A DNA stretch of 64,000 nt. It comes from Owenia fusiformis (lineage: Eukaryota; Annelida; Polychaeta; Sabellida; Oweniidae). The notes beneath the pieces were generated by a model, which was not told the DNA's origin, made no database searches, and saw nothing but the letters and a program-made list of their open reading frames with translations. Within the stretch, counting starts at the first letter, position 1; every line of letters begins with the position of its first letter. Position numbers and translations under genes: made by a program. This document shows positions 30,901-36,900 of the stretch, piece by piece. The stretch is from the NCBI GenBank assembly GCA_903813345.2, contig CAIIXF020000005.1, positions 10,359,375-10,423,374 on the forward strand, in the 5' to 3' direction.

Positions 30901-33900
30901 AATATTGGGCCAACGGTATTTGAGTTGTTGCCTGGACAGACAGACATATGGACTGATGAAGCCATTTGGTATATCCCCCTGAACCTTCAATGGGATAATA
31001 ACTGTATACATGTTACATTATTTTCAAGATTAATGACACAAGAAAAAATATCTCAATTTCAAATACAAGCAGGCAAAATGTAATGACTAATGCAAATGTA
31101 TTATAATCTCAAAATTTTAATTTCTCATTTTTTCATAAAAATATATATCACCCAAATTAAATTATGAATATTCAAAAGAGGACATTTAAATCTACAATAT
31201 GTAAATATATCACAATTGTCCAAAGCAGGGGTAATGTGCAGTAGACCGATTCAATAAAATACAAGTCTCAATTTGGAGAAAGAAGTTCATCAGTGTACTG
31301 CGCTAATGATTTTTTTTATGAAAAACCACCCAAATTAAATTATGACTATTCAAAAGAAGACATTCAAATCTATATAATGTAAAAAATCAAATTTATCTGA
31401 AGCAGGGATAACGCTCATTTAGAGTGATGAACTTCGTTCTCCAAACCGAGGATAGTCCTTTCTATTTCTACCAAAAACACTTACATGAGGTTAGGATTTG
31501 ATGAATACTAGCTACAGCTGAACACACCCATGTCATGTGATCTTTTTGACCAATCAGATCAGAGAGAGTTGGAGTCTGCAGGACAAGTGTTGTGCAATGA
31601 ATGGCCACATAGAGTTGATGTGATGAGGGTAAGATGTCATGGAGATACATCCAATGCAAGACCTACAAAGACAAACAAATTCAAAAATCGTTTCACATTT
31701 AAATAAACATCTGGGCATACACTAAACTTCTGTTCTTCTGTTACTACTTCTATTCAAAGTTACAAAGTAATAATATTCAAATATTCTTTGGATGTCAGTG
31801 TAGAATTCCTTGAGCTGCTCGAACTAACAGTACAATAGGAGCATTGATACAATGCATGGCTAATGGTTTAATATGCCTCAGATACAGTGAAGTATTACAG
31901 GACAAACAGTGATGTTTGCATTAAAAATCAAAAATAGACTGAACCGACTTAAAATTTTATTACATAGGTCGTAAATGAAAGTGAAAGTACTTTCATAAAA
32001 TCCAAGGGAATTATTACTATGGTTTGTGATTTTGGTTTTGATTAATTTATTTATAGAATTATGCATTAATGAACAAGAAATGCCAAGAAACACATCCTCT
32101 GAAGTCCCTGCTACAAGAGAAAGACTTGATCAGTACATACCTCCAAACAGAGAACACTGAATCTAGCGACATCATTGTGAGACTCTGGAGGCAAACTTGG
32201 TTGCCAAGGTAACAAAGGAAGCGAGATCATGTATTTCAGCAAGGCGCCTGCTAAATGAAACAAACTATCCAACCATCCTGAATCATTGAAGAAGTCCTCC
32301 ATTTTTTCCTGATATTGTTCAACTTTACTATTAGATGGCGCCTTTTTTGAATAGCATAAAACCTTATGAGGCACCGGTAACATGTTTATGATATTGTTGA
32401 GATGGCGGAATAATGTTAATTGTGAGGCTTGGAGTAGGGGGTCCATTGATTTATCTGGAGTTTGCTGTCTGGAGGTTGTTCGTTGGGGGTTGGTAGAGTT
32501 GTGTAAGGACCTGTGTACACCTAGCGACACACAGTCTTCCAATATACTCAGTCTGAACTCCTACAAGAGAAGAAAATAGTGGATCTGAAATTTCATTAAA
32601 TTCTCATTGAAGAATAATGCAGTTATTATATGGGGATTTTTTAAGATGAGGGAACATGGAAATATAATCTAAAAACATATCTATTTACCTTAGTGTTTTT
32701 CAAATATAATGCAAAACAAATATGTGTGTATATTTTGTATTTCAAACAACTCACATATGCAAACATCAATGTATACTGTATTTACCTTTGTCATTATAAT
32801 AGCAAGGAGGTCAGAATACTGCACATGTTGAAGTAGCATTGCACATTCCCTTGGCCTGGGATTGGGGCTGAAACACTGGTCTTTGCAGATGGACAGGTAC
32901 ATTTCCTGAAATATCCATGTAGTATATGATGAACACCTTAAATTGAATCATGGTTTTGGGAATTTCACATGTTACAAACACCGGCACAAATCTTGAATTA
33001 CCTTAGCCAGTGTTGATTTCACATGGTACAAACACCGGCACAAATCTTGAATTACCTTAGCCAGTGTTGATTTCACATGGTACAAACACCGGCACAAATC
33101 TTGAATTACCTTAGCCAGTGTTGATTTCACATTGTACAAACACCAGCACAAATCTTGAATTACCTTAGCCAGTGTTGATTTCACATGGTACAAACACCGG
33201 CACAAATCTTGAATTACCTTAGCCAGTGTTGATTTCACATGGTACAAACACCGGCAAAAATCTTGAATTACCTTATCCAGTGTTAATTTCACATTGTACA
33301 AACACCAGCACAAATCTTGAATTACCTTAGCCAGTGTTGATTTCACATGGTACAAACACAAGCACAAATCTTGAATTACCTTATCCAGTGTTAATTTCAC
33401 ATTGTACAAACACCAACACAAATCTTGAATTACCTTAGCCAGTGTTGATTTCACATGGTACAAACACCAGCAAAAATCTTGAATTACCTTATCCAGTGTT
33501 AATTTCACATTGTACAAACACCAGCACAAATCTTGAATTACCTTAGCCAGTGTTGATTTCACATGGTACAAACACCGGCAAAAATCTTGAATTACCTTAT
33601 CCAGTGTTAATTTCACATTGTACAAACACCAGCACAAATCTTGAATTACCTTAGCCAGTGTTGATTTCACATGGTACAAACACAAGCACAAATCTTGAAT
33701 TACCTTATCCAGTGTTAATTTCACATTGTACAAACACCAGCACAAATCTTGAATTACCTTAGCCAGTGTTGATTTCACATGGTACAAACACAAGCACAAA
33801 TCTTGAATTACCTTATCCAGTGTTGATTTCACATGGTACAAACACAAGCACAAATCTTGAATTACCTTATCCAGTGTTGATTTCACATGGTACAAACACA

Positions 33901-36900
33901 AGCACAAATCTTGAATTACCTTAGCCAGTGTTGATTTCACATTGTACAAACACCAGCACAAATCTTGAATTACCTTATCCAGTGCAAGAGTACTGACATC
34001 TGCTGTAGACAAAGCTAGCGGATGTGTTTTCTCTGGGGACAAAGTCTGTCGACTCTCTGGACACATCAAATTGCGTAATTTGTTCAATAAAGATGCAAGT
34101 CTGGAATGTCTACAAATAAAATAAAAAAGTCATATTTCTCTTGTTTCTTTATGAAAATCACTACAAAACTGATTTTAATCCTAAAAAATTAGTTAGATCG
34201 TGGTTATACCACAATAAGTGAAATACCACTGTGTAAAACAATTGAATAATTCACAACCATATCAATTTCACTTGTACCGCGGTCAAAAAGCATGAACAAA
34301 AATACAGCCTGAATGTACCATGAAATAAAATCTAGAAAACTTTGCAAAACATGTCAACTAATTATGCATAAAGGAGCACGTAGGTTATTGCAAGCAATTT
34401 CAAATGATTCTAACTTGAATTATTAATATTTTCTGATCATGAATATGGGTGTATCTTTTAGATCCATTCATTATCTTCAAGAAAAGTATATAAAATGATA
34501 ATTTAGTTAATCAGACCTAAGTGATATTGAAGGGGCAATGGACCAATCAACATACGTTTTCAAAAATGTTGACCTAATTTTCACCAGAAATGCAACATTT
34601 TATTATATTGTTGAATGCATAATTAGAATGTGCTTTGAGACATGTTCAATTTCCTTAAAGGAAAAGTTGATTACTCCAGGTACTTTAAAGATACTGAATT
34701 TGGATGACCAAAATGAACTGAAACCAATGGATAGCATGAGATTTTTCAATGGAGAAATAACATGGGGAACACTTATCTTAAAGCAATTACGTTTTTCTTT
34801 CAAGAACTATTTGATACATCAAAATAAAGAATAGTAATGCATTAAATATTGTAAAAAATGATTGCTAGCCAAATATCTCCGAGTTTTTTTTTACTTTATT
34901 ATTACTGTATATAATTTCCTTTGAGATAATGAATTGATCTAAAAGATAAACCCGTCTTCATTGTCAGAAAATAGTCATAATCCAAGATATAACCTTCTGA
35001 AATTGTTTGCGATAACCTACATGCTCCTTTTATAGTTGTAAAATTACATTCAAGTTACCTTCTTGTGAGCCCATGTGTTTTCATAAACTGCAATAATTTC
35101 TCCAAATCTTCCAAAGGTAACTGGTTACTGCTTTCCTACAATGATATACACATAATATTATTGACTGATATTTTCTGATTGCTTGATTTTTGGGAAACAG
35201 GACAACTCATCCCTAAGACAACTCATCCCAAGACAACTCATCCCCAAGACATCTCATCCCAAGACAACTCATCCCAAGACATCTCATCCCAAGACATCTC
35301 ATCCCAAGACATCTCATCCCAAGACATCTCATCCCAAGACATCTCTTCCCAACTTGAAATATAACATAATTTTATACAATTAAATTTAACTTTTGAAAGA
35401 ATATTTGAAACATATTTAGAGATTTTAGCAGTAAGCACACTGTGTTTGGCCATGGAATATCTTTTGTATTTTGTAGTTAGTTTACTCTAGTTTCAGTTAA
35501 TTTTCTTTTGATTGATTGGGATAAAGATAAACGTGTTCAAATTGATATATACTTTGATTATTATATAAAAGATCATCAAGGGTGTCAGATTAGGCTTAAT
35601 GCAATAAGAATGTATTATCCGGGGGGTATTATCAGAATAATTCTCCCAGATTAATCCAGTCTTTGTTTTAACATATTTTGCTTAATTCCAATATGTCATA
35701 TTTGGCTTATTCTTCAATAAGATTTCCAATTTTAAACTTTCAGAATCATCATGATTGAATTTGGAAATTATGTCTTTTACTTTTATCTTCAATTCTATAT
35801 TCTCAGATATATTGAGAATTTGAGAATAACCCAGAATTAATAAAACATACCGGTACGTAAAAGTAGAACATAACTTTCAAGTGCCATTTCAAAATCCTAA
35901 AAATTATCAATATTAAGATTGAGTGTGTAATCAAATATCACTTTGTAATCGCAAAAATGAAAAAGGGATATATATATTATATAGAGGACAAATTAAATCA
36001 TTTATAACTAATTGATATTTTTTGTAGATTATATTAGTGGGATGAGTTGTCTTGGGATGAGATGTCTTGGGATGAGTTGTCTTGGGATGAGTTGTCTTAG
36101 GGATGACTTGTCTTGGGATGAGTTATCTTAGGGATGAGTTGTCTTGGGATGAGTTGTCTTGGGATGAGTTGTCTAGAAACCGATTTTTGTACCACAATAT
36201 TTATAGACTGTGGACTACTCTGATAATTGTAACTTCTGCTTTTCATGAAAGGTCACACATTCCAACATATTTCAAACAGTCTGTATGATTATGCTGGGCA
36301 CTTTCTGGGTAGTTGGACTTCATGTAGGGGTGGCAGACGGCCCTCAAGCCAATTTATACCCCCACCCCAAGAAAACCTTGGGGGTACTTTAATACCACCT
36401 AATTAAAAGAATACTAATGCATGTCATACATTCATAGTTTTTTAGTAGGCAGGGCATACCATGGTTAGTCAGTGCCAGAAATTTCCAATCTCTAACTTAT
36501 ATGGTTACCATGGAAACAGTATTTATATCTCAAAATTTTCTCAATTTGACCTCCTCCCAAATATATCCCTTTGCTCTCAAAGTGAAATATTTGCAAATTT
36601 GTTAGGAATTTGTGGCTGCCACTTTGTCAAAAGTTGTATAAATATGTATATATTCACACTAAAGCACTAAAAAGTTGATATAATGCTCCAATAAATCAAT
36701 AATATTTATCAAATATAGTCACACACAACAACTTTTAGGGAAAAGTGGGCGTGGCACTTTTTGGTACTTGCGTAATTGTTGCAGCATTAAGCTAAAAATA
36801 AATATTACACTAACAACAATTGACATTTAATTATCATCTACTAATGTGTAACATTGTAATATGTTCATTATCATTATTAGATACTTACGATATTTTATGT

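Follow-up and report, generated by a model that had tools for sequence, protein, structure and literature searches.

Tandem repeats that cross splice sites are already a known kind of structure. Genes within human segmental duplications carry variable internal tandem repeats at exon-intron boundaries, with transcript support for alternative splicing (PMC2812944); human UBC is a polyubiquitin array of dual-specific splice sites whose ladder of isoforms has been seen in RNA (PMC10809524); and the potato RdRp gene contains a tandem duplication across an intron-exon boundary (PMC4974935). Here we describe a 54-bp minisatellite that straddles a 5' splice site of huntingtin (HTT) in the annelid Owenia fusiformis. 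It lies in C5:10359375-10423374 of a genome assembly of 498 Mb in 525 contigs; this stretch of 64,000 nucleotides, which we call the window and to which the coordinates below refer, holds the C-terminal part of HTT on the minus strand. Each unit of the array renews a splice donor in the HTT frame, and an initial annotation of the DNA had proposed either a length-variable repeat in huntingtin or a buffer of redundant donors. We consider it likely that the array is instead a tolerated tandem duplication across the 5' splice site, with the first donor normally used.

The HTT array resembles the human boundary repeats in that a tandem repeat crosses an exon-intron boundary and multiplies splice sites; it differs in that the human repeats come with transcripts (PMC2812944), whereas the Owenia arrays are known from the genome assembly and 18 of the 21 that we verified run into a stop before their second donor. 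With UBC it shares units placed head-to-tail, a unit length that is a multiple of three, AGGT at each unit edge and an open frame; the UBC units, however, are coding sequence in which AGGT doubles as 5' and 3' splice site (PMC10809524), whereas those of HTT are mostly derived from intron, and by eye the sequence before AAG/GT in the HTT units has no pyrimidine-rich tract. As in potato RdRp, the duplicated segment spans a splice boundary, but the potato case is one duplication at a 3' boundary that gave a new intron and no amplified array (PMC4974935). The htt gene of Ciona, too, has 5' splice sites that compete without loss of frame, likewise in the C-terminal region of HTT; there are two of them, 57 nt apart, and the portion of that report at hand mentions no repeat array (PMC1636649). 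A study of intronic minisatellites in C. elegans concerns regulatory motifs (PMC4039745). Searching the literature with narrow terms, we found no report of such arrays in huntingtin or of a genome-wide set of them in a non-human animal. A human intronic variable number tandem repeat reportedly affects the splicing of ABCA7.

The array follows directly on an HTT exon of 136 nt (33974-34109, minus strand), which aligns to human HTT in PDB entry 6ez8 and ends in phase 0 with ...CTGGATAAG. Tandem Repeats Finder (TRF) places the minisatellite at 32962-33984 on the minus strand, with a period of 54, 18.9 copies, 94% matches and 0% indels. The repeat includes the final 11 nt of the exon (33984-33974), so that the unit is made up of 11 nt of exon and 43 nt of intron; with exon, intron and splice site all within the unit, the array is an exon-intron-boundary repeat. 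Split by script, it gives 18 complete units (33973-33002), each of which starts with GTAATT, ends with AAG and contains no stop in the HTT frame. The word AAGGTAATT is found 19 times, and these 19 donors, AAG/GTAATT, have their +1 bases at 33973 and then every 54 bases to 33001 on the minus strand, all in the HTT frame and all with the same nine donor bases. A partial nineteenth unit (32948-33001, minus strand) has no donor after it and carries a TAA that is relevant only under intron retention. The next HTT exon (32786-32905, minus strand, 120 nt, at about the start of C-HEAT) joins in phase 0. Since the TAA is intron for any of the 19 donors, every one of them would give in-frame HTT, with 0 to 18 additional blocks, and a splice from the last donor would leave an intron of 96 nt (33001-32906). 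The initial annotation had thus described the units, their donors, the phase of the junction and the confinement of stops to the terminal unit accurately. A DNA search of the assembly, although such a search can miss copies, gave the 54-bp unit at the HTT locus only, and we rejected the possibility that it is a dispersed repeat.

The position of the array within the protein could also be established. Two of the four HTT exon peptides tried matched the Pfam family Htt_C-HEAT (PF20927; 3.5e-08 and 2.3e-25), and the other two, from the exons on either side of the array, had no Pfam hit. A three-exon query spanning the array aligned to huntingtin in 6ez8 with an E value of 1.2e-17 over chain residues 2048-2254, with the array junction K/E opposite DK/DWY of human HTT. 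The chain of PDB entry 8sah (1057 residues), which from its length would be a C-terminal huntingtin construct, aligns from query residue 43, with the junction about 6 residues into the chain, and extrapolation from exon 32560 would put the start of the Pfam C-HEAT profile about 10 residues past the junction. From the 8sah alignment and the extrapolated Pfam start, the placement of the insertion just before C-HEAT, which the initial annotation had proposed, holds.

HTT contains a second donor-straddling array, built in the same way. At the exon 22556-22687 (minus strand), which ends in phase 1, TRF finds a 135-bp array at 22128-22656 (minus strand, 3.9 copies) whose unit combines about 100 nt of the end of the exon (22687-22556) with about 35 nt of intron. 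Four intact donors, ATAG/GTAAGT, are present at 22555, 22420, 22285 and 22150, and read-through past the first of them leads at once to GK*, the stop being TAG. Of the two donor-straddling arrays in HTT, then, one would permit read-through and the other would not.

We scanned the genome on both strands for donor words in three-copy patterns, using each word read backwards as a control; the places found overlap within arrays, so that the counts are not independent. The word AGGTAATT with gaps of 30-60 gave 143+103 places versus 35+57 for the control, AGGTATGT with gaps of 45-75 gave 488+438 versus 142+217, and AGGTAAGT gave 448+146 versus 184+144 with gaps of 30-60 and 337+211 versus 163+176 with gaps of 60-90. 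With gaps of 112-142 the control was the higher, at 262+227 (489) versus 281+76 (357) for AGGTAAGT. Single sites number 19,150 genome-wide for AGGTAAGT and 33,930 for the reversed word; per single site the AGGTAAGT places are about 3-fold enriched (594/19,150 versus 328/33,930), but this is a ratio of places that overlap within arrays. Counted as arrays among the places listed from C1 to C3:3.3 Mb, there are 8 for AGGTAAGT and 11 for the reversed word, a per-site ratio of about 1.3 from small numbers, which makes arrays about equally frequent per site for the two words, and the idea that donors are hotspots for minisatellites is not supported.

From about the first 100 places listed per scan, a sample of donor and acceptor loci that leans to contigs C1-C7, we fetched 63 donor loci (L004-L066), of which L034 and L035, separated by 1.3 kb, may be parts of a single array. 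The exon peptide that ends at the first donor was run against Pfam, with a threshold of E<1e-3, for 40 of these. The other 23 (L008, L018, L033-L037, L040, L041, L043, L045, L047, L051, L053-L055, L057, L059, L060, L063-L066) were left out because by eye there was no clear exon at the first donor, because the frame was short or doubtful (L040 and L041 among them) or because the array extended beyond the fetched piece. At this threshold 19 of the 40 tested loci gave a Pfam match and 21 gave none, and the match ends no more than 6 residues from the donor in 18 of the 19 and 12 residues from it in L016. The matched families are Muted, NIF phosphatase, ligand-gated channel, UDP-glucose dehydrogenase, MRPL52, Sec5, PKD, calpain III, MOV10 barrel, AAA_11, HSP70, COR-B, C-type lectin, GFO_IDH, Rubicon domain, ANKLE2, SDA1, Syja_N and 3'-5' exonuclease. 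We define the verified set as these 19 Pfam-confirmed arrays and the two HTT arrays, 21 in all. By TRF starts, the exon contributes between about 10 nt (L052) and 126 nt (L016) of the unit in the verified arrays L005-L056, with a seeming bias towards the exon side. The arrays at the MOV10 barrel and AAA_11 exons, 3.4 kb apart, probably belong to one gene; this MOV10-like helicase gene has the donor-straddling arrays L021 (C5:1753164-1754179) and L022 (C5:1756617-1757002), the former closed (72 bp) and the latter, of 63 bp, open in all units, so that a closed and an open array are paired as they are in HTT.

The frames of the verified arrays bear directly on how the HTT array is to be read. The base period is a multiple of three in 8 of the 21 (p 0.65 versus one third), and in 18 the frame meets a stop before it reaches the second donor. 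The three exceptions, open to the second donor, are the HTT 54-bp array, L020 (open for 156 nt) and the MOV10-like L022 (open for 462 nt); about two in-frame open arrays are expected, given that a shuffled unit is open with probability 0.24 and a 54-mer drawn at random from the HTT strand with probability 0.32. The length of 18 codons together with the open frame is a coincidence to be met in about one array in ten (one third x 0.28), and the HTT 54-bp array is an unremarkable draw from the verified set. Genes with closed arrays would mostly have to use the first donor to make protein. Because a similar anatomy is found at many other exons, where it is mostly unreadable as protein, the HTT array probably represents an accident that is tolerated and not an isoform switch built into the gene.

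The units themselves give the same impression of neutrality. There are eight distinct unit types, and similarity is higher between units two apart (0.969) than between neighbours (0.941), an indication that the array grew two units at a time. Seven columns of the unit are variable, and the seven changes from the consensus comprise 6 nonsynonymous, 1 synonymous and 0 stop, where the neutral expectation, with a 2:1 transition weight, is 0.68, 0.245 and 0.074, respectively. There is no excess of synonymous change among these seven; the differences fit neutrality, and the units vary at the protein level in the manner of untranslated sequence. On this pattern of substitutions, and on the control set of arrays, we rejected selection on the open frame. 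It has also to be considered whether the array is selected as a set of redundant donors that guards the splice or tunes the level of HTT. None of the 9 donor columns varies across the 18 units, as such a function would lead one to expect, but with 7 variable columns the probability of this by chance is 0.26, and similar arrays stand at exons of many unrelated families; we regard selection of this kind as most improbable. The array itself is thus beyond chance, whereas its design-like features, the open frame and the invariant donors, are not. It is also highly improbable that the array is an artefact of assembly, its length inflated or collapsed: the other arrays of the kind come from the same assembly and so offer no independent check, but the eight unit types occur in an ordered pattern with no indels.

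The closed 135-bp array in the same gene, the frame statistics (8 of 21 periods a multiple of three, 3 of 21 arrays open) and the neutral unit changes leave both functional proposals of the initial annotation, a length-variable HTT repeat and a purposeful donor buffer, unsupported, although the geometry on which they were built, with in-frame redundant donors and a phase 0 junction just before C-HEAT, stands. We hypothesize that tandem duplication of a 54-bp segment over the HTT 5' splice site (11 nt of exon and 43 nt of intron) started the array, which then grew into the intron, partly by two-unit steps, via unequal exchange or slippage, while the exon and its own donor would have stayed intact at the upstream edge. 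Splicing would normally pick the first donor and the copies would be removed with the intron; the array, nearly neutral, may have been kept because the exon and the first donor still define the splice. Exon definition favours a donor near the exon's own acceptor.

Several points weigh against this explanation. The use of the first donor is something that we infer from the sequence; nineteen equivalent donors might leak, and where 5' splice sites are duplicated the intron-proximal copy may be the one chosen. The control set is not random, its members having been picked first for three copies of an exact donor word and then for a Pfam match, and L062 is a weak case in it, with the first donor just outside the TRF array. 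In L009, L026, L031 and L032, four of the 18 closed arrays, the stop sits in the donor word, in phase 2, and of the 21 arrays only the HTT 54-bp array and L022 are open through all units; since the HTT exon ends in phase 0, a phase 2 stop in the donor word is impossible there, and its openness is the less surprising. Downstream donors in the verified set are mostly intact (a tally that leaves out L010 and L062 and traces a single copy in L009), but this is in part a product of how the set was built, and we give it no weight as evidence; since three intact copies were a condition of the search, we dropped intact downstream donors as proof of disuse. At the human boundary repeats, moreover, 66% of intron changes also have transcripts in which the repeat stays within the exon (PMC2812944).

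If several donors were used at random, the result would be a ladder of huntingtins with 0 to 18 extra blocks of 18 residues in the linker before C-HEAT. That the 19 donors are identical over nine bases and all yield in-frame products, that the last would leave an intron of 96 nt and that the insertion point is just before C-HEAT are all consistent with such a ladder; UBC demonstrates that ladders of this kind occur (PMC10809524), human boundary repeats are often found in both spliced and retained forms (PMC2812944), and Ciona htt has its in-frame alternative 5' splice site at 57 nt (PMC1636649). Against it, the 135-bp HTT array and 18 of the 21 verified arrays overall are unusable as a ladder, and the 54-bp units vary as if untranslated. 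A single-sequence AlphaFold model of exon and array has no confident fold (mean predicted local distance difference test score 52.7); this is weak evidence against a ladder, and given so poor a model we rejected the idea that the units form a folded domain. We judge the use of several donors to be unlikely, and it keeps that much probability because of the retention at human boundary repeats and the choice of intron-proximal sites. The full ladder, in which stochastic choice among 19 identical donors and a fast-changing minisatellite would together place 0 to 18 blocks in the hinge before C-HEAT, is distinctly doubtful; if true, it would be a length-variable HTT repeat unrelated to polyglutamine.

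Arrays that mirror those at donors occur at acceptors, which favours the preferred explanation, a tolerated duplication. Three-copy patterns of TTTTCAGG gave 141+115 places versus 20+28 for the control. By eye, 9 of the 16 acceptor loci fetched (L067-L082) have an exon-like frame starting at the last acceptor. Pfam was run on these 9 loci, the other 7 being left out, and 4 of the 9 matched at E<1e-3: a septin exon (L071, C3:2523400-2524200), a C2H2 zinc-finger exon (L070), a class II (A) tRNA synthetase exon (L075) and a RING exon (L082). From the acceptor and donor arrays together, duplications across either splice site are tolerated, provided that the exon is left whole by the outer copy.

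The O. fusiformis genome thus holds a good number of splice-site-crossing arrays, at donors and at acceptors. Each array is a natural experiment, in which 3 to 19 nearly equal donors come at regular intervals after one exon, and could reveal whether the spliceosome takes the first, the last or a random one of a series of identical sites, a choice that is usually studied with artificial minigenes. The HTT array could in addition reveal whether the hinge that precedes C-HEAT can accommodate long insertions.

Other repeats are present in the window. One HTT intron has two 15-bp arrays in inverted orientation about 0.7 kb apart, GACATCTCATCCCAA at 35201-35352 and TGGGATGAGTTGTCT at 36038-36174. 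A large array at 50900-52305 has nested periods of about 125-166 and 284 bp and is rich in TTGACCTTGAGAAGGTCATTGAAGGTCAAA. Sequence like GGAGGATATCGTAACGATATACTCCG, probably a dispersed repeat, is found at 27170-27226 and at about 21810-21890. Finally, two very similar compact elements, at 11022-11108 and 47507-47593, each consist of a 22-bp tandem pair and a 21-bp tandem pair that share GAATATCACTT/AAGTGATATTC; they look like copies of a short mobile element.

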